This document shows positions 18,504-62,085 of a stretch of 64,000 nucleotides of DNA, in pieces. A program made the position numbers and the translations under genes. The stretch is from Bacillus sp. ISL-41 (lineage in GTDB: Bacteria; Bacillota; Bacilli; Bacillales; Cytobacillaceae), in contig NZ_JAGGQP010000029.1 of assembly GCF_018613235.1 (NCBI RefSeq), positions 1 to 64,000 on the forward strand. The letters are read 5' to 3'. How positions within the stretch are numbered: position 1 is the stretch's first letter; every line of letters begins with the position of its first letter. The notes beneath the pieces are model-generated. The model was not told where the DNA came from, did not search any database, and saw only the letters and a list, made by a program, of their open reading frames with translations.

Positions 18504-18779
18504 TCAGCAGCCGCCGTCTCCGCCCATCAGGACAAGACCTTCACGATACTCGTCATATTCAAGTGCCATACCTTGAGTATAGTCGACGATATTGGATTCG
18601 ATTGCGACTTGGATTTCGTTGATTACTGTTACATGATCATCTTCTTCCGGCTCCTCCAGAGCCAGACCAATCTGCGGGCCTCCTCAGCCAAAGCCGCCGA
18701 AGTATACGCGAATACCTTCTGCGTTGCGCTCAGCGAGGATCTCTTTTAAAATGTCGCGCGCTTTATCTGAAATCTGCAT
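18504..18779 (-). CDS. HesB/IscA-like selenoprotein (in-frame UGA read as Sec32)
   Basis: Read through one in-frame TGA at 18684-18686, the frame gives 91 residues: MQISDKARDILKEILAERN, then GIRVYFGGFG-U-GGPQIGLALEE, and the C-terminus GGDGGC. UGA falls where HesB/IscA-type proteins have their first conserved Cys (GFGCGGP), and homologous HesB-like selenoproteins are known in bacteria. Coding character is the same on both sides of the UGA, with no frameshift. A hairpin that can serve as a SECIS follows. The ATG at 18779 is preceded by AAAGGGAG. A role in Fe-S or redox chemistry is inferred. Without Sec insertion, only a 31-residue peptide would be made. Confidence 0.85.
18647..18665 (-). promoter_or_regulatory. 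Candidate bacterial SECIS hairpin of the HesB-like gene
   Basis: On the minus strand CUGGCUC / GAGCCGG form a 7-bp stem with the loop UGGAG. It starts 18 bases after the UGA, so the apical loop is about 25 bases away, within the 16-37 base range known for bacterial SECIS elements. The hairpin is inside the coding sequence. Confidence 0.55.
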
Positions 18780-33146: not shown

Positions 33147-34175
33147 TTACGAACCCAGGTATCGAGCATAATAGGATTTTGCTTTTACCGTATCATTCGT
33201 TCCATGGATGAGGACCCTTCCGTCCTGGAAAATGACCATGGTAATTTTCTCGTCCGGCATGAAGCGGAGCAAAAATGGATTGCCTTTGACCTCTCCATTA
33301 TTTTTCAGGGTGCTGGCCAGTTTCTCCAGATCCTGTTTCGTTTTTTGCCGCGGATTGATCTGGATGGTGTTCCGGCCGCATAAGGATGCATAGTTAATTT
33401 GCTGGTCTGATGAACGATCTAGAAATTCGTAATTGTGGTGGACACATGCCGGGCATTCTGGATTGCGCCCCTGGCTGACGTCCATTTGCAAATAGGAGTT
33501 GTACCAGATATCCATCTGTTCAAGATTCGGATTTGACTCTGCCCCCACGAGCAGCTTGAGTGCCTCGACTGCTTCGAAGGATCCGATAATATCCGTAATC
33601 GGCGAAAGCACACCGATGCTGTCGCATGTCTCTCCCAGTCCAGTTGGAACAGATGGGAACAAACATCTATAGCAAGGAGTTTCACCTGGTTTGATGGCGG
33701 CGAACATCCCACGTGAACTGACAGCGCCTCCGTACACCCACGGAATGCCATGTTTGACGGCAACATCATTGATGAGATAGCGGGCCATGAAGTTATCGGT
33801 CCCATCGACAATCACATCAAAGCCTGCAAGCAGATCCTCTGCATTGTCGAGCGTCAAATCTGCGATGATCGGCTCTACTTTAATCGCAGAATTAATCTTT
33901 TTCAGCTTTTTTTCAGCGGCGATGACCTTCGGCAGGTTGTCGCGCGCATCATCCTCATCATAAAGAGTCTGGCGCTGGAGGTTCGAAAGCTCCACCAGGT
34001 CACGGTCGATGATGCGGACATGCCCGACACCTGATCGGACCAGATGATTCGAAATCACCGTACCCAGCGCGCCCATGCCGACGATGACAGCTGAGCTCTT
34101 CAATAGTTTCTCCTGGCCATCCCTTCCAATTGGCTTGAATAAAATCTGCCGTGAATAACGCTCCATTTCTATCAT
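33147..34175 (-). CDS. ThiF/MoeB-family adenylyltransferase (sulfur-carrier activating)
   Basis: The product has 342 residues. The nucleotide-binding loop is GMGALGTVISNHLV, followed by DRDLVELSNLQRQTLYDEDD and TDNFMARYLIND. The zinc Cys pairs CYRC and CPAC are present. It adenylates the C-terminal Gly-Gly of a MoaD/ThiS carrier. An extra C-terminal region, PFLLRFMPDEKITMVIFQDG with RVLIHGTNDTVKAKSYY, is typical of MoeB/ThiF-like proteins. It is divergent from the AOR gene, and a MoaD-like gene lies beyond AOR, so the likely role is tungstopterin synthesis. Confidence 0.88.
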   Translation of the reverse strand: MIEMERYSRQILFKPIGRDGQEKLLKSSAVIVGMGALGTVISNHLVRSGVGHVRIIDRDLVELSNLQRQTLYDEDDARDNLPKVIAAEKKLKKINSAIKVEPIIADLTLDNAEDLLAGFDVIVDGTDNFMARYLINDVAVKHGIPWVYGGAVSSRGMFAAIKPGETPCYRCLFPSVPTGLGETCDSIGVLSPITDIIGSFEAVEALKLLVGAESNPNLEQMDIWYNSYLQMDVSQGRNPECPACVHHNYEFLDRSSDQQINYASLCGRNTIQINPRQKTKQDLEKLASTLKNNGEVKGNPFLLRFMPDEKITMVIFQDGRVLIHGTNDTVKAKSYYARYLGS

Positions 34176-34320
34176 GCATATCCCCTCATTTCTATTTCAT
34201 TATATCTTTAAATAAAGCTTTTTTTTAGGCTGAATTTTCACTATACTTAAGATTAAGAGGAAAATAGACCTCTTGTATTATTTTTTATCCATACTAAATG
34301 AAAGAGGTGGATTAGTTAAG

Positions 34321-36162
34321 ATGATTTTTGGGGGATTTAAAAACAAAGAAGTAGTAGTTGACCTGTCAAATGGCACTGTCGATTACAGAGGCATCAATGA
34401 AGACGACGTGAAAAAGTATGTCGGCGGCCGCGGTCTTGGGGTTAAGTATGTTCTTGACAACGGGCCTGAAGTAGAGCCTTTGTCAGAAGAAAACATCCTG
34501 TGCATCATGACGGGGCCTGTAACAGGTTCACGTTCATCAATGAGCGGACGTCTTGCAGTGGTAACGAAGTCTCCATTGACAGGAACGGTTACTGACTCGC
34601 ACATGGGCGGATGGACAGCAGCTCGTTTGAAGTGGGCTGGCATCGACAACGTTATTTTCAAAGGCAAAAGTGACAAGCCAGTGTACCTTTATATCGAAGA
34701 CGGTAAGGCAGAGATCCGCGATGCTTCTCAATTGTGGGGATTGAGCACGCGCGCGACTGTACAGTCTTTGAAGGATGCACATGGCGAAGAAAACTTAAGC
34801 GTCATGACAATTGGCCAGGCTGGCGAAAACGGCGTACGTTTTGCCGGTTTCATGAACGAGCATGACCGTGCTGCAGGACGCGGCGGTACTGGTGCGGTTG
34901 CAGGCTACAAGAAGCTGAAAGCAATCGTCATCAAAGCTGCACAAAAAGGCAATATGCCTGAACCTGCACAGAAAGATGATTACAATCAGGCCAACAAGAA
35001 AGCGGTTAAAGCGATTCTTGAAGGCGGCCTGACGGCTCCTAACAAGGGCGGCTTATCCGTATACGGAACAAACGTCCTTACTAACTTGATCAATGAAGTG
35101 GGAGCGCTTCCAACGCGCAACTCTCAATTGACACACTGGGATGAAGCTGAAAAGCACTCAGGCGAGTGGGTAAACGAGCACATTCTCGTTGCCAACAACA
35201 CATGCCACGCTTGCCCGGTTGGATGTAAGATTGAGGTTGAAGTCAAGGAAGGCAAATATAAGACTCGCGTAGAAAGCTTTGAGTTCGAATCTGCATGGGC
35301 ACTTGGTGCGAACAGCGGATTGAGCGACTCAGAAGCGATCGCATACTTAATCGACATCTGTAACGAATACGGTATGGATACTATCGAGCTTGGCCACGCT
35401 ATCTCTGTCACAATGGAAGCCTATGAAAAAGGCATCGTTGAGGAGAAGCTTGACTGGGGCGACGCAGACGGCATGATTGAAATCGCTCGCAAAATTGCGT
35501 TCCGTGAAGGGTTCGGCGGCATCCTTGCTGAAGGTCCTGCACGTGCAACTGCTGCATGGGGCGTTCCTGAACTGTCGATGTCAGTTAAAGGCCAGTCTAT
35601 CCCGGCTTATGATCCACGCGGAATCCAGGGTATCGGCCTTGGCTATGCGACAAGTAACCGTGGTGCCTGCCACCTTCGCGGCTACACAATCGCATCTGAA
35701 ATTGCCGGCATTCCTGAGCCAACAGACCGTACTGTAGCAGAAGGCAAAGCTGAGCTTCTGAATGTATTCCAGAACCTGCTTTCATTCTCTGACTCTATGA
35801 ATATCTGTAAGTTCTCTTCCTTCTCTGAAAACGCAGAGCATTATGCTGAGCAATACAGCACAATGACTGGCATTCCGATGACAGCTGATGATGTCATGCT
35901 TGCAGGGGAAAGAATTTACAACCTTGAGCGTTACTACAACAACCTAGCTGGCTTCAACAAGCGTGAGGATGACTTCCTGCCAAAACGTTTCACGGAAGAA
36001 GGCGCTTCTGGAAACAGTGAAGGACTTGTTTCTCGCATGGATATCATGCTTGAAGACTACTATAATGTCCGCGGCTGGAAAGATGGCGTTGTTACTGAAG
36101 AAAAACTTCGCGAACTTGGCATCATCGGCGAAGAAACAGCACCAGCTACTGAAGAAGTTTAA
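34321..36162 (+). CDS. Aldehyde:ferredoxin oxidoreductase, tungsten-dependent
   Basis: The product has 613 residues and oxidises aldehydes to acids with ferredoxin, using a tungsten bis-pyranopterin and a [4Fe-4S] cluster. Cluster ligands are C295, C298 and C302 in CHACPVGC and C496 in NICKF, closely matching the spacing of the Pyrococcus enzyme (288, 291, 295, 494). The N-terminal block GGRGLGVKYVLDN and GPVTGSRSSMSGR belong to the pterin-binding domain. The ATG at 34321 is preceded by AAAGAGGTGG about 13 bases upstream. Together with TupABC and the carrier and activating genes it forms a tungsten pathway. Confidence 0.93.
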   Translation: MIFGGFKNKEVVVDLSNGTVDYRGINEDDVKKYVGGRGLGVKYVLDNGPEVEPLSEENILCIMTGPVTGSRSSMSGRLAVVTKSPLTGTVTDSHMGGWTAARLKWAGIDNVIFKGKSDKPVYLYIEDGKAEIRDASQLWGLSTRATVQSLKDAHGEENLSVMTIGQAGENGVRFAGFMNEHDRAAGRGGTGAVAGYKKLKAIVIKAAQKGNMPEPAQKDDYNQANKKAVKAILEGGLTAPNKGGLSVYGTNVLTNLINEVGALPTRNSQLTHWDEAEKHSGEWVNEHILVANNTCHACPVGCKIEVEVKEGKYKTRVESFEFESAWALGANSGLSDSEAIAYLIDICNEYGMDTIELGHAISVTMEAYEKGIVEEKLDWGDADGMIEIARKIAFREGFGGILAEGPARATAAWGVPELSMSVKGQSIPAYDPRGIQGIGLGYATSNRGACHLRGYTIASEIAGIPEPTDRTVAEGKAELLNVFQNLLSFSDSMNICKFSSFSENAEHYAEQYSTMTGIPMTADDVMLAGERIYNLERYYNNLAGFNKREDDFLPKRFTEEGASGNSEGLVSRMDIMLEDYYNVRGWKDGVVTEEKLRELGIIGEETAPATEEV

Positions 36163-36173
36163 TATTTTGAGGA

Positions 36174-36203
36174 AACCAGGTGATTTCTCGCCTGGTTTTT
36201 TGT
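36174..36203 (+). terminator. Terminator of the AOR gene
   Basis: The stem AACCAGG / CCTGGTT has a 10-base loop and is followed by a T-rich run. It starts 12 bases after the stop. Confidence 0.88.
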
Positions 36204-36247
36204 TTTGACGTAATTAAATGAGGCAAATAGTAGCGGATGAAGCAACT

Positions 36248-36361
36248 TGGTCGAATTAATTGGAAATGTGGTCGAATTATTTTAAAATCCGCCAAAAAAA
36301 CTTGAAATGTGGTCGAATTATCGTGAAATCCGCCAAATAAATCGGAAATGTGGTCGAATTC
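36248..36361. repeat. Intergenic repeat array with 41-nt period (TGGTCGAATT)
   Basis: TGGTCGAATT occurs at 36248, 36269, 36310 and 36351; the last three are exactly 41 bases apart. Two full units contain TGGTCGAATT followed by AAATCCGCCA, an imperfect inverted repeat of 26 nt, and a 15-nt A-rich spacer ending GAAATG. The array is between convergent AOR and the 90-residue gene. Other bases to 36473 show no gene. Confidence 0.85.
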
Positions 36362-36473
36362 ATCTAAAGTGCACTCCTCCAAGATGTAGAACCCTTGCCT
36401 TTTGCGTAATCCACATTCAAGATAGGTGATTTTAACCGGGAAATTAGAGTTTTCACGTAAATTTCCACTCAAA

Positions 36474-36506
36474 ATAAAAAGGCTCCGGCAATAAACTGCC
36501 GAAACC
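36474..36506 (-). terminator. Terminator of the moaD-like unit
   Basis: On the minus strand GGTTTCGGCA pairs with TGCCGGAGCC (10 bp with two G-U pairs), followed by TTTTTAT. It begins 4 bases after the stop of the 90-residue gene. Confidence 0.85.
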
Positions 36507-36510
36507 TTCG

Positions 36511-36783
36511 TTACCCGCCAACCCGGGTTGTTTTATAACGGTAATTTTTAATCAGCTGTTCGAGCTCATCCATGGTTTCCGCCTCAAAGCGGATATGTAC
36601 AGCATTGACGATGAATGTTTTTGTAAAAGCAAGCTCATCCTCGCTTAAGATTTCTGCTCTCCATCCTTCCGCCTCATACACAAACGGGAAGGAGTCGGTC
36701 ACGAGCCTGCCGCCCAGCTCTTCAAAATACATTCCAAGGTGATCCCTGTTGATTCCGCGGAATTCTAGTATTCTATCAACCAT
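36511..36783 (-). CDS. Small protein resembling the MoaD-related C-terminal domain (DUF1952-like)
   Basis: The product has 90 residues, from MVDRILEFRGINRDHLGMYF to YRYKTTRVGG. It ends in Gly-Gly, though a carrier role is not certain. In other organisms a similar domain is found fused to, or beside, MoaD-type carriers. Here it begins 1 base after the MoaD-like stop, so the two are coupled. ATG at 36783 is the likely start; the in-frame TTG at 36798 overlaps the upstream gene. The assignment rests on pattern and context only. Confidence 0.6.
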   Translation of the reverse strand: MVDRILEFRGINRDHLGMYFEELGGRLVTDSFPFVYEAEGWRAEILSEDELAFTKTFIVNAVHIRFEAETMDELEQLIKNYRYKTTRVGG

Positions 36784-36784
36784 A

Positions 36785-37057
36785 TCAGCCACCGGCAACC
36801 GGAGGAAACAGCGCGAACTGGTCGCTTTCTTTTACATACGTTTGAAGGTCCTGGTCATGGACGATGTTTCGGCCATTGATGTAGACATGCACAAATGGCT
36901 TGAGCGTCTTTTCTTCTGTAAAAATCTCTTCGTGCAAATCCGGGAACATTTCGCACATTTTATCAAGCACGTCCATTACCCGGTCTCCATCAGGCTTCAC
37001 TTCGACTGTCACGCCTCCGCAAATCTCCCTGAGATTAGCAAATACCTTAACCTGCAT
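36785..37057 (-). CDS. moaD: MoaD/ThiS-family sulfur carrier
   Basis: The 90-residue ubiquitin-like protein starts MQVKVFANLREICGG and ends FALFPPVAGG. The terminal Gly-Gly is the site of adenylation and thiocarboxylation. The length is within the MoaD range. As it sits between AOR and its LysR neighbour, it probably supplies sulfur for the pterin dithiolene of the tungsten cofactor. The divergent ThiF/MoeB-like protein at 33147 is the natural activating partner. Confidence 0.85.
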   Translation of the reverse strand: MQVKVFANLREICGGVTVEVKPDGDRVMDVLDKMCEMFPDLHEEIFTEEKTLKPFVHVYINGRNIVHDQDLQTYVKESDQFALFPPVAGG

Positions 37058-37145
37058 CCTAAACGCCCCTTTCTCCTTACCTTAATAATAAATTGAAAAA
37101 TGAAAAATGTCATTAGCTCTTTCAGCAGGGACTCTTCACTCTCAA

Positions 37146-38033
37146 TTACGATTTTTGATTCACTATTTCTGAGAACTTGCTGATCATCGGAGTGTTTTCA
37201 GCATCTGCAAGGGTCACGAGATAAAATTCCCGTTCGTATGGTTCGAAAGTATCGTCGATTTTAATGCGGCCAGCTTTTTCTGCAGGCATAGCCGCCAGCC
37301 TGGAAATAAAGCTGATGCCCAGCCCTGCTTCAACCGCTGCGATGACAGATTCCGTACTACCGATCGATACGGCAACTTTCAAATCTTCAATCGACAGACC
37401 TTTTTCTGCTAAGTAACGTTCCATCATTTTGCGAGTGCCTGACCCTTCTTCACGGAGGACAAAATCATATTGTTGAATTTGTAGAAAATCTGCTGATTCC
37501 GTTTGGACTAATGGGTGGCCTTCTGGCGTAACTAAAACCAGCGAGTCCGTGGCAACCGTGGTGCTTTTTACCAATCGGGATTCGACCTTCATCCCGATGA
37601 TCGCAGCATCAATCTGATGGTTCTGCAGTTTTTCAAGTATTTTTTTCGAATCGCCGATTTCGATTTTGACATCCACCTTCGGAAAAAGGCTGCGGAACCT
37701 TTTAACCCAGCCGGGAAGCAAATAGGTTCCTGGTATCGTGCTCGCACCAATTGTCAGTGTGCCTGTCAAGGTTCCCTGGAATTCTCCGAGTTCGCCCTCC
37801 AGCATCCTCCACCGCTTGGCAATGTCCTTTGCCGCTGTATACACAAGCATACCTGCAGGAGTCGGCCTGACTCCTGCCGCTCCTCTATCAAGCAGTTCAA
37901 ATCCCAGCTCATCTTCCAGGCTTTTGATTTTCAGGCTGACAGATGGCTGTGAGCTCTTAAGCGCGGCCGCTGCTTCAGAAAAACTATTCTTTTCGACAAC
38001 CATTATGAATGCCTCTAGCTTTTTTAAATTCAT
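37146..38033 (-). CDS. LysR-family transcriptional regulator
   Basis: The product has 295 residues. The winged HTH at residues 1-60 includes MNLKKLEAFIMVVEKNSFSE and SSQPSVSLKIKSLEDELG. A substrate-binding effector domain follows from about residue 90 (LTGTLTIGASTIPGTYLLPG). It is close in style to CysL/YtlI-type regulators and to LysR proteins described near selenium-metabolism genes. It precedes moaD on the same strand by 88 bases and is a candidate regulator of the AOR cofactor genes. The effector is unknown. Confidence 0.85.
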   Translation of the reverse strand: MNLKKLEAFIMVVEKNSFSEAAAALKSSQPSVSLKIKSLEDELGFELLDRGAAGVRPTPAGMLVYTAAKDIAKRWRMLEGELGEFQGTLTGTLTIGASTIPGTYLLPGWVKRFRSLFPKVDVKIEIGDSKKILEKLQNHQIDAAIIGMKVESRLVKSTTVATDSLVLVTPEGHPLVQTESADFLQIQQYDFVLREEGSGTRKMMERYLAEKGLSIEDLKVAVSIGSTESVIAAVEAGLGISFISRLAAMPAEKAGRIKIDDTFEPYEREFYLVTLADAENTPMISKFSEIVNQKS

Positions 38034-40457: not shown

Positions 40458-40671
40458 TATTTTTTTCTCCTATTCTAGTATTAATTTCACCTCTGCATCT
40501 GAAAAAACCAAGTTATATATACGCAATATACTATCCCCTTTAAGTTTGATATTTCCATCTTATGGTTTCCGGACGCTTAAGGCAATAAAAATTATTGTAA
40601 GTTTTAGGTTCGATGTATAAAGGTATAATCCAAACAAAATCTAAATGATGAAAAGTGAACAGGAGGCTGCT

Positions 40672-41304
40672 ATGACACTAAATATCAAAATCTACTCTGA
40701 TTACGTTTGACCATTCTGTTTTTTGGCGGAGTTTCCGCTAATGGAAGCTATAAAGGGGAAAGATGTTGAACTAGAATGGATGCCTTTTGAATTGAGGCCT
40801 TATCCGAACAAAACACTGAAGCCTGAAGAACACTATCTGCAAAGCACCTGGAAGCAATCCGTCTACCCAATGGCTGAGCGGATGGGCATCGACATTGTCC
40901 TTCCGGATGTGTCTCCCCAGCCATATACGCATTTGGCATTCGAGGGCTATCAGTATGCGAAGGAGAAAGGGAAAGGAAATAAGTATAACGACCACATGCT
41001 CAGGGCTTTTTTCCAAAGGGGGCTGGATATTGGGGATGTCAAAGTATTGACGATGCTTGCGGAAGAGATCGGCCTGGATGAAATGGAGTATCGTGAAGCA
41101 CTGGAAACTAGGAAATATAAAGAGGCACATCAGAAGGCTCTTCACCATGCGTATAATGAGGTTGATATAACCGCTGTCCCTACATTTATCATTGGTGACA
41201 GGGTCGTTCCGGGAATGAGGTCGAAAGAAGCACTGGAACAAATTATAGAATCAGAAATGGGAGATTCAGGTGATGGTTTAGCATGCGGTGTGGATGGATG
41301 TTAA
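40672..41304 (+). CDS. DsbA/FrnE-family oxidoreductase, selenoprotein (UPFC active site)
   Basis: The frame has one in-frame TGA at 40708-40710. Read as Sec13 it gives 210 residues starting MTLNIKIYSDYV-U-PFCFLAEF. The FrnE/DsbA thioredoxin-fold motif CPxC becomes Sec-Pro-Phe-Cys. The rest is typical of FrnE-like proteins (LEWMPFELRPYP, AVPTFIIGDRVVPGM with its cis-Pro). The C-terminus ends CGVDGC. AGGAGG lies 5 bases before the ATG, which itself is only 12 codons before the UGA. A SECIS-like hairpin follows. Starting after the UGA would remove strand 1 and the active site. Confidence 0.88.
40723..40741 (+). promoter_or_regulatory. Candidate bacterial SECIS hairpin of the FrnE-like gene
   Basis: TTGGCGG / CCGCTAA form a 7-bp stem (one G-U pair) with the loop AGTTT. 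It begins 12 bases after the UGA, which places the loop about 20 bases downstream. An outer CCATT / AATGG pairing starts directly after the UGA. Loop position and the G-U-containing loop fit the bacterial SECIS rule. Confidence 0.65.
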
Positions 41305-51775: not shown

Positions 51776-53287
51776 CTACAAACTGTATCCCAATTGCAGA
51801 ATCAATTTCTCCCAATATTCACGATACACAGGATTTCTAAATACCGCAGGTTGCTTTAAAGATCTTTGTACTAACTTTCTATATGGAAATACCCCTTGTT
51901 GATGAAGATCCAATATCACATCTTTGATTTCGTCTTTAATTCTCTTAGTCCTTTCGATTTTGCTCTGATCTTTATATTTTTTATACCTAAACACAATTTT
52001 ATTACAAAGATTGGGGTAATATCTTTTAACTGTACTATGTGGGAAGCCATATTTTTTAATAAACTCAGATAAACTTAGGGGAATTTCTTGTGATAATTCT
52101 AATAGGAGCTTTTCTTCTATTTCAGCTAGAGTTTCATCCCAACAAGCTTTGTTATAATTTTTATATCTTTGGCTGACTTGTCCACATAAATCCGGAAACT
52201 GATCTCTAGCTGAATTTAGACTAAATCCTTTTTCATAAGCTATTTGCTTCAAACTCTTTGGTATACGCGAAGAAATTTCATTCCTCAAATGATATTCTGT
52301 CTCTTGCTTAGAAATATATTGATTTTTCCTACTGTTGTTGCTATCATCTAATTTTATTTTCTCTAGTCGAATATCATCATATATCAAATTATATATGGTG
52401 CTATTTATTTTCCAACCTATTTTTAATAAGCTTTCTGGCGAAGGGATATGTCTATTGCTAAGCCAACACGATAAGGTTGAAATACTAACGTTTAAAAACT
52501 TTGCAAAATTTGTGTTATTAAACTTTAAAGCAGTCATAATTTTGTATAATGATATACCGATAGACTCTTTTGTAGGTAAAACGTTTACTGAGGACGATTT
52601 TTCAATTAATTGTTTATAGCTGTCAATAATAAATTTTTCTTCATTAGTTACAGAATCGATTATTTTTCCTTCAAATTTATTACCTAAACTAGTTAAACAA
52701 TACTGACACTGACCAACGATAAAGTTACCATGGATATAAGGCAACATTTTATTGCAGTTGGGACATTTTTCCTGTAATTCAACAATGTGTTTATCACACA
52801 TGGTTATATCTGATATATACCATATAAGAGGTTCATATAAATCTTTGTTTTCATCTTCCCATTCTTTTAAACAAACAGGACACCATTTTCTATATTTACC
52901 GACAACATTTTTCGAAAAAATACCTGTCCAACTGCTCATAGTTAATTGTTGAAGATCACTACGAGATGTCAATCGTTCAAATACATCAACATATTCGGAA
53001 CTTACACGACTATTTCCATTTATATATTGAGCTGTATCCCCAAAAATCCCCTGTGATAAGTTATTTTTCAAATACATTTTATTTGTAGTTTGAGCGAATA
53101 CCCCTTTAATAAGAGAACTGATTGTTACATTATGTTTTAATGCTAGCCTAGAAATATAGCTAGTTAAACTTTCAACATAAGGAGTACCGATACCAATTGG
53201 TTCTAAGTTATATAAAGCACTTCTGGAAAAAAATAAACTGTTAAGTTTATTCTCATTTTCTATTATCCTATCAAATAAATAATTCAA
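51776..53287 (-). CDS. TniQ/TnsD-family target-selection protein 1
   Basis: The product has 503 residues. The TniQ domain starts ALYNLEPIGIGTPYVESLTS. Zinc-binding pairs follow: CPVC at about 137, then MCDKH, CPNC and CQYC. A HTH-like segment is NVSISTLSCWLSNRHIPSPE. The C-terminal half has repeated KYGFPHSTVKRYYPNLCNKI-type motifs seen in TnsD proteins. It probably recognises a DNA target and brings TnsC to it. It lies 94 bases downstream of tnsC on the same strand and is a paralogue of the protein at 57364. Confidence 0.85.
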   Translation of the reverse strand: MNYLFDRIIENENKLNSLFFSRSALYNLEPIGIGTPYVESLTSYISRLALKHNVTISSLIKGVFAQTTNKMYLKNNLSQGIFGDTAQYINGNSRVSSEYVDVFERLTSRSDLQQLTMSSWTGIFSKNVVGKYRKWCPVCLKEWEDENKDLYEPLIWYISDITMCDKHIVELQEKCPNCNKMLPYIHGNFIVGQCQYCLTSLGNKFEGKIIDSVTNEEKFIIDSYKQLIEKSSSVNVLPTKESIGISLYKIMTALKFNNTNFAKFLNVSISTLSCWLSNRHIPSPESLLKIGWKINSTIYNLIYDDIRLEKIKLDDSNNSRKNQYISKQETEYHLRNEISSRIPKSLKQIAYEKGFSLNSARDQFPDLCGQVSQRYKNYNKACWDETLAEIEEKLLLELSQEIPLSLSEFIKKYGFPHSTVKRYYPNLCNKIVFRYKKYKDQSKIERTKRIKDEIKDVILDLHQQGVFPYRKLVQRSLKQPAVFRNPVYREYWEKLILQLGYSL

Positions 53288-53381
53288 GATTTAACCCCCT
53301 GATTTTTCTAATTGCTTTTAAAAAGAAAAAAATAATTGAGTGGACTAGATATTTTCCACTCAATTATTTTTTAATAATCCT

Positions 53382-54539
53382 TTATTGCCCTACAACATCC
53401 CTTTCAGGACTTCTATTTCCGGGAAGGGGATTTCTTTTTTGTTTTGTAGTTTTTTCTGCCCTTTCTTCTTTTTTCTCAGTACCTAAAAGAGACTTTAACT
53501 GAACTCTATCTTCTTCTTTTTCAATAAAGATTGATTCTCCAATTAATGCTTCCTCAGCTAATGTAAGCAATTTTTGAGTTTGTAATGCATTCTTTTTCAA
53601 ATTATAAATCGAGATGGTTTTCTCATCATTTTCAATGGCATATGACAGGCATCTTTGTAGCCAATCTTTTAAGATTCCAGCACATCCCACACAGTTTTCA
53701 TAAATAAATTCTTCATGTTCAGTGAGATTAGGCTCTTCATGGACAGGTAATAATTTCTGAAAAGTTACTAATACACTTCTAAACATTTTCTTATCTTGTT
53801 TATTCCTATAGTCGTATCTTGGAAAGTGAACTTCTTTTACCCTTCTTGACAGCTGGCCGTCAAGATTTATTACAGCATTTAAGGCATATGTTCCAAATAA
53901 TACTATTTTGGTGTTAGCCATATTAGCAAGTGACTTCAATGAATTAAATTGTCTTGTTATAGCAACACCTGTACCGATATCAACACTTCTTCCATTTTCA
54001 ATCTTGAAAAAATGTTGAGCCTCATCAATTAATAAAGCATTTGTTTTTCTATAATATAGAGCGTTCTCCAGCGATCTCCTTAGTTCGGGTGCTGTTTCAC
54101 TTTTCCTTGTACTTATTCTATCCTTCGGAACTTGGTTGAAGAACTTTTGATAATCGACCTTATGATCAATCAAAGGCTCATTAAGTCCTGTAAGAACCCT
54201 GTAATAAAAGTCCTTCCAATTAAATTTACCTAGATCCGGATTTGGAAGTTCAATTCCCGTAATAGGGATAATACTTTTATCAGCTTCCATTTGTTCTGCC
54301 ATATCTAGATAAACCGAATGTAGAGTTCTTTCAAATAATCTCGATTTACCAACCCCAGATGGTCCCACAATCAATATGACGTTGCAGTCCCCTGTATATA
54401 TTTCTTTTTTTAATTCTTTTAAAACTAATCCCATCTTTGGGTGTGCTACAGTATAGTTTTTAAAGAATTCTACACGTTCTTCCTTTGTTTTTTCCAAAAG
54501 CTCTTCAGGGAATGCTCTTTCATGGTTACCGTTTTTCAT
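53382..54539 (-). CDS. TnsC/TniB-type AAA+ ATPase
   Basis: The product has 385 residues. Walker A is VGPSGVGKSRL (about residues 58-68), and Walker B with sensor is NALLIDEAQHF (Asp172, Glu173). The AAA+ switch region resembles TnsC/TniB, which bridges target selectors and transposase and decides when insertion occurs. Its start overlaps the last base of the TnsAB stop, so the two are coupled. The C-terminal tail is Lys-, Arg- and Glu-rich. Confidence 0.88.
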   Translation of the reverse strand: MKNGNHERAFPEELLEKTKEERVEFFKNYTVAHPKMGLVLKELKKEIYTGDCNVILIVGPSGVGKSRLFERTLHSVYLDMAEQMEADKSIIPITGIELPNPDLGKFNWKDFYYRVLTGLNEPLIDHKVDYQKFFNQVPKDRISTRKSETAPELRRSLENALYYRKTNALLIDEAQHFFKIENGRSVDIGTGVAITRQFNSLKSLANMANTKIVLFGTYALNAVINLDGQLSRRVKEVHFPRYDYRNKQDKKMFRSVLVTFQKLLPVHEEPNLTEHEEFIYENCVGCAGILKDWLQRCLSYAIENDEKTISIYNLKKNALQTQKLLTLAEEALIGESIFIEKEEDRVQLKSLLGTEKKEERAEKTTKQKRNPLPGNRSPERDVVGQ

Positions 54540-57202
54540 TATATTAACTCCCCATAAATTTCTATTTCATCATCATCATTATCATCTTCCGATTCTTCTA
54601 AGATGATATTAGTAACATTTTTTGTGGCTTCATGATCAACAATCGTTAGATTCGGTTTAGTTTCAATCGGTTTGTACTTTTCCAAAGCAAGCATTTCTTC
54701 CATATTTTCTGATTCTAAAATAAATCCAGCAATCATCTTTGCTGTGATTATTCCATTAGTTGATCGAAGTTTCTTCTTTTGTCTAAGTTCTTCGGCTATT
54801 ATTTTTAGTTGTTTTTCCGTCTTTCCATTGAAGAGTGAATATTCTTCGGACAGGCATTTCTCCCAAATATTATTTATCAATGCATATGCTACACCGATAT
54901 TAAACGGATCGTACCTAACTTCTACTTCAGAATTTTCGACTTTTGGATCTCTAAATTTTGCAGACCAGTAATATGAATAAGTTAATTTTATTCCTTTCCC
55001 CGGATGAACCTTTCTAGTTTTTCCTGATACTGATGGTAGGGTCATTAAAATAAAGGTTTCATCATAAGGAATATACGTATTAGGACGGTTACCAGTTAAT
55101 TCCAACGATTCTCTAAAGGCTTCTTTTGGAGTTTGATTCAACGATTCATTTTCTAAATTGTCATAAACCTCATTAATCCATCCTTCAAGTCTTTCATACA
55201 AACTTTCCATTGTCCAAACAGCATGATTTTTTGGATTCACTGTTTTGGTAACTTGACGAACATTTTTCATAATTTGTGTATTACCCTTTAAATTATGAAA
55301 GAATAGCTTATTCGCCACACCAAATAAACGCTCAACCACATTACCGAACCTTGCCTTTGCTGCTGGTCTCTCTTTCTTATGGACCCCATATGAAGCAAGT
55401 AGGGATTCAAAATAAATACTTCTAAATTCCTTACCACCATCAACCACTATATAATTTGGCAGTCGGTTATATTTTTTTACGCATTCTCTCAGCACCATCA
55501 TACATGACCTATAAGATGGGGGTTCGAAGGTTAGATAAAAGGCAAGAATTCTTCTTGAATAAGCATCAACCATAAGAGTACACCACGGCTTTATAATTTC
55601 GTTATTATGAGCTACTAACTTAATATCCACTACAGTATGGTCAATATGGGCAGTTTCAAAGATTCGTTCCCCATGCCTTGGGGTAGTAAGTTCCAATTCC
55701 CAATAAAATTCTTCATGTTTATACGCAGCCCGGCTTCCTTCCCTATTAAAGGTCAATTCATATATACTACGATTTTTTATTGCTTTACAAAACGTTGGGT
55801 ATGAAGGGGGATCAATATTTTTCTCTTCACATTTAACAACTAATTCACGATAAACAGCTTTTGCTGTCTTTAATTTATTCGTTGCATAACTGCCATCAAT
55901 CATCTCTACCATTAACTCTAAGGTTTCAGATTTAATTCTTGCTTTCCGATTTCCTCTCTTCTTTGTATACGGCAATAAACCAAGATATCCGTTACCGTGT
56001 AATAATTCTGCATCTCTATATTTTTTGACCCAGTTCCTAACAGTTCTATCAGTTACATTATCAAATTCAATTTTTTCTCCGTTTAGATACTTTACTACAG
56101 GCTCGTATCTTGCATTTGCAGTGCTTAAATCAGATTCAGTTGCTTGGGATATTATTTTATAAATACTACTATTAGTTTCACTTTCAACAAATATACCTTT
56201 GATGTAACCATCTGAAATATAGCCTTCAAATATATGAATTGGTAAGGTAATTTGGTTGCGATTATCATCCGAATATAAAAAAATCTCTTTATTTCTTTGG
56301 TCATAATTTAGAATGGTCCATGGGCTTTCACCCCATAAAATCCTTTTACCACTTTCCAATTCAATCTTATTTATTTTGCGATCTTGCTTTTTTGATTGGG
56401 CTACAATCGTAAATCCTTTGCTTTGCTCTTTATTCAAAAAAACCTTTACGCTTTCCGGCTGAGTAATTACTGAATTGTACAGATCTATATAGATAAAATT
56501 TTTAGCAATTAAGGCATATATATCATCTGTTGAATATTGACCTTCTGCATATTGAATAAGTTCCATTAATGTCAAACCAGGTGTTGCTGATATAACATCC
56601 TTTATACGGGATATTTCCTGACTCGCTAAAGCATATTCTTTTACAATGTAGTCTTCCAAAAAAGTGAGATTCCGCTGGAGATTCCAATTAATATCCGCTG
56701 ATGAACGGACTAAGAATTCTAGATTTAGTTGTTTTGCATAACTTATTCCTGGAGCAAACATCCAATGCCCGTCTTCTCTAAAATATCTATCGGGTCTTTC
56801 TTGTGACAACTTAATTAATTTTTCTTCTGTTTTCCATTCAACCCAATAGGCTCTTTTTTTTTCAATTACAAAATAGTCTGGAGTGTAAAGATAAGCTGCT
56901 TTCCTGTCTTTTCCATTTTTACTTTGAAAGTAAATTAATTTCAATGAAGGTGGTTGGTCATAATATTCTAGTACATCATCATTAAACTCCATCATATATA
57001 CTGCTGGAAGTTCAACTTTGTGGCTTTCAAACTGTATAGTCAATCCCATTTTTCTACTACTATACTTTCCCGCTACATTATACTTCCCGCCTCCAACTCT
57101 TCTTGACGGCGGTGAATTCCTAATAAGTTGTATTTCTTTTTTTGCTTCTTCTGTTAAATTAAGTTGTACTGCCCACTGTTCAAATTCTTCTGGACTCATC
57201 AT
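54539..57202 (-). CDS. TnsA-TnsB fusion transposase (Tn7-like)
   Basis: The product has 887 residues. Residues 55-130 match a TnsA endonuclease: Glu64 in ELPAVYMMEF, then QPPSL, Asp109 in TPDYF and Glu122/Lys124 in YWVEWK. A HTH lies near 380-480. The rve/DDE domain has Asp521 in AHIDHT, Asp588 in VVDGGKEF and Glu624 in NVVERLFG. It therefore combines 5-prime cleavage (TnsA) and 3-prime cleavage and joining (TnsB), which predicts cut-and-paste movement. It is followed by tnsC with a 1-base overlap and preceded by two 51-nt direct repeats. Confidence 0.9.
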   Translation of the reverse strand: MMSPEEFEQWAVQLNLTEEAKKEIQLIRNSPPSRRVGGGKYNVAGKYSSRKMGLTIQFESHKVELPAVYMMEFNDDVLEYYDQPPSLKLIYFQSKNGKDRKAAYLYTPDYFVIEKKRAYWVEWKTEEKLIKLSQERPDRYFREDGHWMFAPGISYAKQLNLEFLVRSSADINWNLQRNLTFLEDYIVKEYALASQEISRIKDVISATPGLTLMELIQYAEGQYSTDDIYALIAKNFIYIDLYNSVITQPESVKVFLNKEQSKGFTIVAQSKKQDRKINKIELESGKRILWGESPWTILNYDQRNKEIFLYSDDNRNQITLPIHIFEGYISDGYIKGIFVESETNSSIYKIISQATESDLSTANARYEPVVKYLNGEKIEFDNVTDRTVRNWVKKYRDAELLHGNGYLGLLPYTKKRGNRKARIKSETLELMVEMIDGSYATNKLKTAKAVYRELVVKCEEKNIDPPSYPTFCKAIKNRSIYELTFNREGSRAAYKHEEFYWELELTTPRHGERIFETAHIDHTVVDIKLVAHNNEIIKPWCTLMVDAYSRRILAFYLTFEPPSYRSCMMVLRECVKKYNRLPNYIVVDGGKEFRSIYFESLLASYGVHKKERPAAKARFGNVVERLFGVANKLFFHNLKGNTQIMKNVRQVTKTVNPKNHAVWTMESLYERLEGWINEVYDNLENESLNQTPKEAFRESLELTGNRPNTYIPYDETFILMTLPSVSGKTRKVHPGKGIKLTYSYYWSAKFRDPKVENSEVEVRYDPFNIGVAYALINNIWEKCLSEEYSLFNGKTEKQLKIIAEELRQKKKLRSTNGIITAKMIAGFILESENMEEMLALEKYKPIETKPNLTIVDHEATKNVTNIILEESEDDNDDDEIEIYGELI

Positions 57203-57235
57203 TATAAGTATCCTCCTTATCTGAAGTTAGAAATA

Positions 57236-57360
57236 AAAGTATGGAAAATTTCCTCTTGCGTCTGCTCTTTTTCGAAAATTCCCTCCAATTATTTTTCACA
57301 ATGAATATTAAAGTATGGAAAATTTTCTCTTGTGTTTTTTCTTTTCCGAAAATATCCTCC
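57236..57360. repeat. Two 51-nt direct repeats upstream of tnsAB
   Basis: Copies at 57236-57286 and 57310-57360 are 74 bases apart. Both begin AAAGTATGGAAAATTT and end with CGAAAAT and CCTCC. Each contains a GGAAAATTT-type short palindrome. They fill the gap between the second TniQ gene and tnsAB. They may be operators for an element-encoded regulator or TnsB-binding sites. Confidence 0.85.
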
Positions 57361-57363
57361 TAT

Positions 57364-58692
57364 TCATTCTTCAAATCCGTTCTTAGTTAATAAGGTTTTC
57401 CAATAGTCTTGAAGTACTCTTTCTTTTAACAATCCACTTTTATTTATCACTTGTTCCATTTTCCTGCGACTTGGATAAACCCCATCAGTTAATAATGTAT
57501 TGAAGGCGATATTAATTTCTGTTTTTAACAAATCAATTCTTTGACTTGACTTTTCTTTTATAAAATCACTATATCTTTGAGAAATCTGTTTACAGTATTC
57601 ATTAAAATTTCTGTATAAAACTCTTCTATCATGACCGACAATTTCTGCAGATTTTGACATTGAAATCGGAACTTCATTCGTTAATATCTCAACCAATTTG
57701 CTTTCTACTATGGAATAATCCATTGGTTTACGTATTATTTTCTTTGTATTTGTGGCAAGCGAGTCATTAATTTGAAATATCCTAACACCCAATGAATCAT
57801 ATTCGAATAGCAAATCTAAAATTTTTATGTTTAATTTAAAGCAAATTGTCAACAGACTTTCTAATGGTGGTTTATTTACTCCATTTATCCAATATCGCAA
57901 AGTAGTTTTGGGAACATTTAAAAATTTCGAAAAGCGTGTTAAATTCCCCGAAAAACTATTCTCCTTGATTGAAGATAAACTATCTGCTAATCCACAAGTA
58001 TAGTTACCATTTAAGATTTCTAATTTATTCAAAGTCATTAAATCCTCAATATTCTTTAGAAAGAATTTTTGCAATTCCAATTCAACATCACTTATTTCAC
58101 TTAATTGTGAGTTATCTAGTGGAGCAAAACAGTTAGAACAAAACCCCGTTATACTTTCTCTGCGCAATATATCCACCTTTTTATTACAAGCAGAACATTC
58201 ACTTTCCAGTAAACATTTATGTTCAATACAAACAGTTACAGGTTGAATATGCCAAATAAGAGGATAATGTAAAACTTCCCGTGTCCTTTTCCATTTACTA
58301 ATACACTTTGGACACCACGAAAGAGATTCTTTTAAAAGATTTCTAACTGGAATAAATTCCTTCAAGTTAAATAAGGTTAGGTTCACTAAGTCATTTCTTC
58401 CAGTTAGGGTTTCCATCACTTTAACTAAATCGTACGAATTCTCCAAAAACCCATTTATCGTCTTAGCTCCCTCGTATAATCGATTTCCTCCATACAAACT
58501 ACTCCTTGTCAGGTACCCTTTTTTCAGTTGTGGAATAATTAATTTATTGAACAAATTCCCTAGAGTAATGTTATGTTCGTATGCTGTTCGCATCAAATAA
58601 CTGGTAAAGCTTTCTACACTTTTAGTACCAATGCCTATAGGTTCTATATTGTATAAAGCAGTACTTCCACTTCCTGTTTTTTTATTCTCCAC
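57364..58692 (-). CDS. TniQ/TnsD-family target-selection protein 2
   Basis: With GTG at 58692 the product has 442 residues; an ATG at 58749 would add 19. The GTG is preceded by GAAGGGGAAGG and fits the paralogue, whose conserved part also starts ALYNIEPIGIGTKSVESFTS. Zinc pairs are CPKC, CIEH, CSAC and CSNC. A HTH-like segment is VPKTTLRYWINGVNKPPLES. Two TniQ proteins in one element recall Tn7-like elements with separate target pathways. It is the first gene of the transposition operon. Confidence 0.83.
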   Translation of the reverse strand: MENKKTGSGSTALYNIEPIGIGTKSVESFTSYLMRTAYEHNITLGNLFNKLIIPQLKKGYLTRSSLYGGNRLYEGAKTINGFLENSYDLVKVMETLTGRNDLVNLTLFNLKEFIPVRNLLKESLSWCPKCISKWKRTREVLHYPLIWHIQPVTVCIEHKCLLESECSACNKKVDILRRESITGFCSNCFAPLDNSQLSEISDVELELQKFFLKNIEDLMTLNKLEILNGNYTCGLADSLSSIKENSFSGNLTRFSKFLNVPKTTLRYWINGVNKPPLESLLTICFKLNIKILDLLFEYDSLGVRIFQINDSLATNTKKIIRKPMDYSIVESKLVEILTNEVPISMSKSAEIVGHDRRVLYRNFNEYCKQISQRYSDFIKEKSSQRIDLLKTEINIAFNTLLTDGVYPSRRKMEQVINKSGLLKERVLQDYWKTLLTKNGFEE

Positions 58693-58760
58693 ATAAACCT
58701 TCCCCTTCTTTTTTAGATATATTTCCATAAACACAAAATTTTTATCCATACTTTTCCAAA

Positions 58761-60714: not shown

Positions 60715-62085
60715 TCAGCAGCAAGAATTCTTTTTGATTTCAAACACCACAGGCTGCGGCCCACTGCAACATGAAGATGCTGCCGACTTTTCAGAATTGG
60801 TTTCTGAATCACAGCAACTTGAAGAAAAATCCGTCTTACATACTCCTGTTTCAGGCAACTCTAAATGTACTTCTTTAGCTCCCTTATAATCTCCTGTTAA
60901 GTAAGCTACAATTGATCTCACTTGTTCATATCCAGTGGCAAGCAAGAAGGTTGGAGCACGACCGTAACTTTTCATTCCTACAATATAAAAATCTTTTTCG
61001 GGTTGCCTTAACTCCGCTTCTCCATGGGGCCTCACAGTCCCACAACTGTGAATATTAGGATCAATTAGTGGCGCAAGGGCTTCTACACTCTCAACAGATG
61101 AATCTAGACTTAGCCTAATTTCATTCAGGAAACTAGTATCTGGCCTGAATCCTGTACTTACCACAATCTCATCAATCATACCAAATGTGGTTTCTTTTCC
61201 ATTCAATTCACCCGATACGCTTATCTTCCCATCCGCATTGTTTACTTCATGAATATAAAAAGTAGTTATAACCTCTACTTGTTTCGTATCAACCAGCTTT
61301 TGTATCCGTGTACCTAGTTCACCCCGGGCTTGTAACCCATCATTTTCCTGACCTCCATAGGCTTCCCTTACATGTTTTTTTCGAAGAACCCAGTAAATGA
61401 TTGTGTTAGGGTGCTTTTCTTTTAAAACTGCAAGGTCGAGGAGAGCGTTAATAGCCGAGTGGCCGCTGCCAACCACCATTACAGTTTTGTTCTTGTATCG
61501 TTCTTCTACCTCTTGAAAATTTGGAATTCCATAATAGATTCTTTCATTCAACTTTCTTTCAGAACTGGTCCAGATTCCATTAGAAAGTATCGGATTAGGA
61601 TTTTCCCAGGTACCCGATGCATCCATTATTGCTTTTGCTTCAAAAACCTTTGTTACCCCATTAATTTCTACATACAATTGAAAAGGTACATTGTCTCTAG
61701 ATTCTGTTTTAAGTTTGTCACGACCTTTTTTAGCAACACCGACCACTTTTGCATTTAAAAAGATGTGCTCTTTCAATATTGGCAAATTACTAAGCGGTAA
61801 AAGATAGTTTTCTACAATCTCACGCCCCGTTGGTAAATCAGCATCATCGGTTGAAACCCATCCAGCTTCTTTTAGTAATTTCTTGGCTTCTTTATCAACG
61901 TTATATTCCCATGGTGAGAACATTCTCACATGTCCCCATTTCAACATACTTGAAGCAATTGTGTTTCCTGCTTCAAACAGTACAAACTTTTCGCCATTAT
62001 TAACGAGATGAGCAGCAGCTGCAAGCCCCACTGGACCTCCCCCTATGATTGCAACAGGAAGAGTTTCTTTTCGATTTGAATTCAA
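60715..62085 (-). CDS. FAD/NAD(P)-binding oxidoreductase with Cys-rich tail
   Basis: The product has 456 residues. The first dinucleotide motif is VAIIGGGPVGLAAAAHLVNN; a second, VMVVGSGHSAINALLDLAVL, is typical of flavin monooxygenase-like proteins. The last 45 residues carry four Cys pairs or singles (VCKTDF, SSCCDSE, SSCCSGP, NSCC), resembling soft-metal or arsenic-binding tails. It is in an operon-like series with an ArsN-like acetyltransferase. Start is TTG at 62085, 9 bases after GGGGG. The reaction is unknown; arsenic oxidation is a hypothesis. Confidence 0.78.
   Translation of the reverse strand: MNSNRKETLPVAIIGGGPVGLAAAAHLVNNGEKFVLFEAGNTIASSMLKWGHVRMFSPWEYNVDKEAKKLLKEAGWVSTDDADLPTGREIVENYLLPLSNLPILKEHIFLNAKVVGVAKKGRDKLKTESRDNVPFQLYVEINGVTKVFEAKAIMDASGTWENPNPILSNGIWTSSERKLNERIYYGIPNFQEVEERYKNKTVMVVGSGHSAINALLDLAVLKEKHPNTIIYWVLRKKHVREAYGGQENDGLQARGELGTRIQKLVDTKQVEVITTFYIHEVNNADGKISVSGELNGKETTFGMIDEIVVSTGFRPDTSFLNEIRLSLDSSVESVEALAPLIDPNIHSCGTVRPHGEAELRQPEKDFYIVGMKSYGRAPTFLLATGYEQVRSIVAYLTGDYKGAKEVHLELPETGVCKTDFSSSCCDSETNSEKSAASSCCSGPQPVVFEIKKNSCC

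Follow-up and report, generated by a model that had tools for sequence, protein, structure and literature searches.

The window, that is, the whole stretch of 64,000 nucleotides of Bacillus sp. ISL-41 DNA that was analysed, carries a gene for a FrnE/DsbA-type thiol oxidoreductase in which an in-frame TGA occupies the position of the first active-site cysteine and is very probably read as selenocysteine (Sec). The features that bear on this gene, and a second gene of the same kind in the window, are as follows.

40661..40666, + strand: ribosome-binding site AGGAGG (sequence; motif before the starts of orthologues)
40672..41304, + strand: FrnE/DsbA-type thiol oxidoreductase gene, UGA (predicted Sec) as codon 13, active site UPFC, 210 residues (reading frame, PF01323, orthologues)
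40708..40710, + strand: in-frame TGA, predicted to be read as selenocysteine, at the first active-site Cys position (96 orthologues)
40723..40741, + strand: putative bacterial SECIS-type hairpin UUGGCGG-AGUUU-CCGCUAA with loop AGUUU (codon fixation, reshuffling energy)
40725..40739, + strand: conserved hairpin core GGCGGAGTTTCCGCT (relatives)
41284..41301, + strand: C-terminal CXXXXC motif CGVDGC, residues 205-210 (translation; motif in relatives)
37146..38033, - strand: LysR-type regulator of an NCBI selenium metabolism-associated family (NF040786, 313.2 bits, cut-off 250)
18504..18779, - strand: second predicted selenoprotein gene, HesB/IscA-like, UGA at 18686-18684 in the context GFG-U-GGPQ (open frame, NCBIfam, genus conservation)

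With the TGA translated as a residue, positions 40672-41304 (+) encode MTLNIKIYSDYV-U-PFC..., a protein of 210 residues that ends at a TAA and has no second inner stop. The TGA is codon 13, preceded by 12 codons, the first of them an ATG five bases downstream of the AGGAGG, and 194 residues follow UPFC. The original prediction of a FrnE/DsbA-like gene with UGA replacing the first active-site Cys, with AGGAGG ahead of an ATG 12 codons from the UGA and a 194-residue remainder after TGA-Pro-Phe-Cys, is thus borne out by the complete frame and its translation, and by relatives that read CPFC. With C substituted for U, residues 5-192 match the DSBA family PF01323 (99.7 bits, cut-off 25.6), and among solved structures its nearest kin in sequence are 5cnw and related entries, named FrnE protein (E 7.5e-16). 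A CXXC-type active site follows the first strand, as UPFC in the window protein and as CPFC or CPYC in the Cys orthologues. The window protein has CGVDGC at its very end, an instance of the CXXXXC that many FrnE proteins carry at the C-terminus; a single regular expression matches this motif in 18 of the 27 UGA-form relatives and in 36 of the 69 with Cys. A search of NCBIfam with the frnE product returned no family above its cut-off; for the Rcas_1661 family (seleno)lipoprotein NF041057 the product reaches 26 bits, below the cut-off of 190. A consensus scan found no + strand promoter and no terminator, and a plasmid search gave 174 records with a best identity of 70.6%.

The relatives show how codon 13 is used in this family. 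Loci L021-L150 (n = 130) were compared after setting aside 20 paralogue rows (L031-L050), and the remaining 110 loci (34 TGA, 76 Cys) represent 96 distinct orthologues as judged by unlike DNA around the site. The comparison of homologues for C or U at this site, suggested with the original prediction, gave TGA in 27 of the 96, TGT or TGC in 69, and no other codon. A search of 21 genomes of the genus found a frnE orthologue in ten (75-100% identity, the genome's own copy counted); a TGA that arose by chance is excluded, because all ten keep it at codon 13. Among named records, the best 80 of 94 loci comprise 15 with TGA and 65 with TGT or TGC, some of them from genomes that the genus and family searches also cover. 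The closest of these are Mesobacillus selenatarsenatis SF-1 and M. subterraneus, the first four including two other names; M. selenatarsenatis belongs to the same genus group as the window genome, since selA has identical coordinates in its genome and in G008 of the group. Orthologues with Sec or Cys reach identities of up to 78%, which suits them well to the question of what a FrnE enzyme gains from selenium. The family search (193 genomes, threshold E 1e-30) found 38 places in 37 genomes, 22 with one TGA, 15 without and one with a TAA, and in all 22 the TGA is frnE codon 13.

Several independent switches between Sec and Cys were considered, since a quick tree of the 96 sequences needs at least four changes, yet a single UGA-form clade is not rejected (p-AU 0.40), and the proposal was dropped. 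In one genome (G029) the same frnE family is represented by both forms, Cys and UGA (L058, L151). Litchfieldia salsa has two UGA-form frnE copies, one of which (L115) carries an extra TGA for a conserved Trp at +23 and Asn instead of Asp ahead of the active site, and is perhaps a decaying copy.

It could be argued that frnE is a broken gene carrying a chance nonsense mutation, or that translation starts after the UGA and the first active-site residue is dispensed with. A list of stop-bound open reading frames does show the gene only as a frame of 193 aa at 40723-41304, started from TTG, so that automatic annotation could misread it, and in one family genome (G049) a frnE-like stretch is interrupted by a TAA, with an active site that could not be aligned, so that decay of frnE may occur. 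Against both versions stands, in the first place, the TGA itself, which 27 distinct genes have at exactly the same codon. The part upstream of the UGA is evidently translated, because in the 27 distinct UGA forms pairwise differences at the three codon positions of codons -10 to -1 (0.195, 0.090, 0.523) resemble those of the downstream codons (0.200, 0.110, 0.511). A Shine-Dalgarno motif by a permissive pattern precedes the upstream start in 25 of the 27. In the stretch from the UGA to codon +23, no single column offers a possible start in more than nine of the 27 UGA forms: TTG in nine, every other start before Met +24 in no more than five. Met +24 itself is found in all 27 UGA forms and in 57 of the 69 Cys forms; a protein begun at this Met would lack the first strand as well as the entire active site. 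The original prediction had named close homologues that begin after the UGA as a counter-observation; the coding-like upstream codons and the Shine-Dalgarno pattern speak against such a late start and leave the prediction standing. As discussed below, the codons under the hairpin stem are fixed in the TGA forms and unfixed in the Cys forms, and we consider a pseudogene or a late start highly improbable. The gene is real and easily missed, as a stop-bound gene finder shortens it.

The hairpin at 40723-40741 starts 12 bases 3' of the UGA, and its stem GCGG-AGNNN-CCGC lies over the codons Ala+6, Glu+7 and Pro+9. In all 27 UGA forms these are GCG, GAG and CCG, with no synonymous change, and the three occur together in two of the 69 Cys forms; the codon between GAG and CCG varies in the UGA forms, encoding Phe, Ala or Val. 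From codon +18 onward the same genes use GCG for 56 of 339 Ala, GAG for 205 of 565 Glu and CCG for 91 of 280 Pro. Over 22 nt the hairpin folds with a mean energy of -8.7 kcal/mol compared to -2.6 (sd 0.5) in 200 synonymous reshufflings, for which codon weights were pooled from UGA and Cys forms, and none of the 200 was as low. Given the 27 UGA forms, RNAalifold recovers the stem; given the 69 Cys forms, it finds no structure. Its covariation term (0.63) gives no support for the stem, because the stem hardly varies. The inner five pairs are each kept in 26 or 27 of the 27 UGA forms. The 7-bp hairpin with an AGUUU loop 12 bases after the UGA is present as originally described, and its outer pairing, which had been counted in its favour, proved unconserved, the two outer pairs being formed in 18 and 13 of 27. 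Taken alone, the window hairpin does not stand out: its 57-nt fold has z = -1.0 and is equalled or bettered by 32 of 200 shuffles. An Rfam scan of the window reported no SECIS family at gathering score and a T-box as its sole result. A pattern of site plus hairpin, derived from frnE and its kin, occurs once in the window and in none of 100 shuffles. The near-fixed GCGGAG-NNN-CCGC stem offers a simple element for studies of SelB recognition in Bacillaceae.

The genome from which the window comes (4.6 Mb, 57 contigs) contains the Sec machinery, an absence of which had been named as evidence against the original prediction: selA, selB, selD and tRNA-Sec are all found. Scored alongside 14 control genomes, the model for selB passes its cut-off on contig C57 with 359.6 bits (two of the 14 controls also pass), that for selA gives 563.1 bits on C48 (one control), that for selD, which adjoins selA and itself carries one in-frame TGA, 394.1 bits (two controls), and that for tRNA-Sec 67.4 bits on C12 (five controls). 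ARAGORN likewise calls a tRNA-SeC with anticodon tca (UCA) in this genome. Association with selA was examined for 50 of the 80 named loci, in the genomes that carry them: 14 with the UGA form (L118, the fifteenth UGA locus, is on the same contig as L115) and 36 with the Cys form, hand-picked for spread from the 65. All 14 UGA-form genomes have selA compared to 16 of the 36 Cys-form genomes (Fisher p = 0.0002, kinship not corrected). The 16 indicate that possession of the Sec machinery does not require Sec at the frnE site. All 22 TGA places of the family search lie in selA genomes, but selA is present in 172 of the 193 genomes overall, so that the association tests little inside the family.

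Near-cognate tRNAs read through UGA in Bacillus, and one might suppose that the codon is passed by general read-through with Trp or Cys, or under a changed code, with no part played by SelB and the hairpin. The genome has a complete Sec system, however, and the replaced residue is the first redox Cys in all 27 UGA forms, as it is in 19 of the 20 loci read for the paralogue described below; TGA stands in place of a Trp codon in one of the 27 forms (L115, from another genus), and only the UGA forms have the fixed stem. Decoding of this kind is therefore very hard to credit. No reading was found other than SelB-dependent Sec insertion at UGA 13 that explains the site, the hairpin and the machinery at once, and this one is very probably correct; with sel genes in the genome and homologues that do not start after the UGA, the original interpretation of the codon as selenocysteine is supported.

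Other UGA genes occur in the same genome. The original prediction spoke of two UGA codons at redox Cys sites within the window; the second, whose place had not been given, is identified here as the UGA of the HesB-like gene (18686-18684, - strand). Two motif scans of the window for a second UGA yielded no convincing site, and the HesB-like gene surfaced by reading the open frames in gene gaps. A hairpin CUGGCUC-UGGAG-GAGCCGG lies 18 bases 3' of its UGA (fold alone z -0.6 vs shuffled sequence), and its product scores best in NCBIfam with TIGR01911 (62.6 bits, just below the cut-off of 66.35), then with NF038090 (47.3, cut-off 85). The TGA is kept in 20 of 21 genus genomes, and the genome with no match (G010) is 66% complete. 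A further HesB-like frame lies just beyond the window on the same contig (C23:65892-66164) with a TGA at the same site, and another, C37:9578-9805, has one TGA in its frame. A FrnE paralogue (L048, G000:C33:134873-135553) is approximately 30% identical to the window protein and shares with it the UGA-Pro-Phe-Cys, a hairpin after the UGA and a C-terminal CX4C, the last read in near-identical genus orthologues of L048; its hairpin, GCGUC-UGGAU-GACGC, differs in sequence from that of the window gene. The paralogue has a match in 21 of 21 genus genomes, and of the 20 loci read 19 have DFAUPFC and one (L043, in G012) CPFC. The L043 Cys protein is identical to L048 at 111 of 234 positions and may be another paralogue. 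The G008 copy has one TGA according to the search. In the window genome the HesB-like gene, selD and the FrnE paralogue each allow a hairpin to be drawn 3' of the UGA. With frnE, the redox selenoproteins predicted for these Bacillaceae extend beyond SelD. Two other candidates in the window for a Sec near the end of the chain were rejected, a frame that looks MoaD-like by eye (36776-37081, - strand) and the oxidoreductase at 60715-62085 (-): in both, the TGA occupies the place expected of an ordinary stop.

Taken together, the window gene very probably specifies a FrnE-type oxidoreductase with Sec13 inserted by SelB and the hairpin, and with a CX4C pair that probably helps regenerate the active site. 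The products of selA, selD and the tRNA-Sec gene would make Sec-tRNA, which SelB would bring to the ribosome while binding the hairpin, whose start lies 12-14 bases 3' of the UGA, and UGA 13 would be read as Sec, not as a stop. In the sequence Sec13-Pro-Phe-Cys16, Sec13 would form the mixed bond with the substrate and Cys16 would resolve it. The C-terminal Cys205-X4-Cys210 pair probably aids regeneration of the active site, a role that has also been suggested for the motif in Deinococcus FrnE. No leader is visible in the sequence, and the protein is probably cytoplasmic. Its most likely function is that of a cytoplasmic FrnE-type disulfide reductase, with Sec as the attacking residue.

As to known systems, we take COG2761 to be the FrnE group. 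DsbA-like UXXC selenoproteins of COG2761 were described from the Sargasso Sea in 2005 with nine sequences, and a figure legend places a SECIS after the UGA for AACY01178397 (PMC1088965). In 2006 DsbA-like selenoproteins were given a first-column count of 4, and Bacillales three selenoproteins of three families (PMC1794560); by 2016, 45 DsbA-like selenoproteins were reported in 41 organisms and HesB-like ones in 86 (PMC5029168), and reviews of 2022 and 2026 list PF01323 with UxxC (PMC9312934, PMC13188914). This kind of protein has thus been known since 2005. The window gene resembles the Sargasso Sea sequences in its UXXC with Sec first, in COG2761 and in a hairpin of SECIS type after the UGA; those sequences are marine and metagenomic (PMC1088965), whereas the window gene belongs to the Bacillaceae. 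Its product has a C-terminal CX4C. According to a review, FrnE of Deinococcus is a proposed cytoplasmic disulfide reductase whose C-terminal CXXXXC regenerates the active site; the D. radiodurans protein (DR_0659) is of the same DsbA-type subfamily, with CP(W/F)C at 22-25 and CXXXXC at 239-244, but has Cys where the window protein is predicted to have Sec, and is longer, its motif ending at 244 compared to 210 (PMC8945050). The present analysis adds a Bacillaceae branch whose recoding hairpin is near-invariant and whose close relatives carry either Sec or Cys at a single site. In the open-access literature, which was partly covered, no mention of FrnE as a Bacillaceae selenoprotein was found, which does not establish its absence in print; nor did the literature covered yield a description of a selenenylsulfide relay with CX4C for FrnE. 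A distinct Sec-FrnE branch of the Bacillaceae, with a near-invariant SECIS, Sec/Cys swaps among close relatives, possibly two paralogues per genome and a relay between Sec13 and CX4C through a selenenylsulfide, is conceivable and somewhat short of an even chance.

The surroundings of frnE in the window were also compared. The LysR-type regulator is tied to frnE by position only. A conserved frnE operon was considered and rejected, as none of five window neighbours tested was found beside the UGA form in ten loci of other genera (flanks of approximately 3 kb); in genus loci with enough flank, frnE is near brnQ and an MMPL transporter gene, and in some near a GNAT gene. A T-box leader (RF00230, 38198-38439, + strand, 127.6 bits) lies ahead of brnQ, which encodes a branched-chain amino acid transporter. 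The region 33147-37081 contains an aldehyde ferredoxin oxidoreductase gene, with a MoeB/ThiF-like gene nearby and the MoaD-like frame recognized by eye. Further along, at 51776-58749 (-), Tn7-like transposition genes encode two TniQ proteins, a TniB-like AAA protein and an 887-aa protein in which a TnsA-like nuclease domain is joined to an integrase core.
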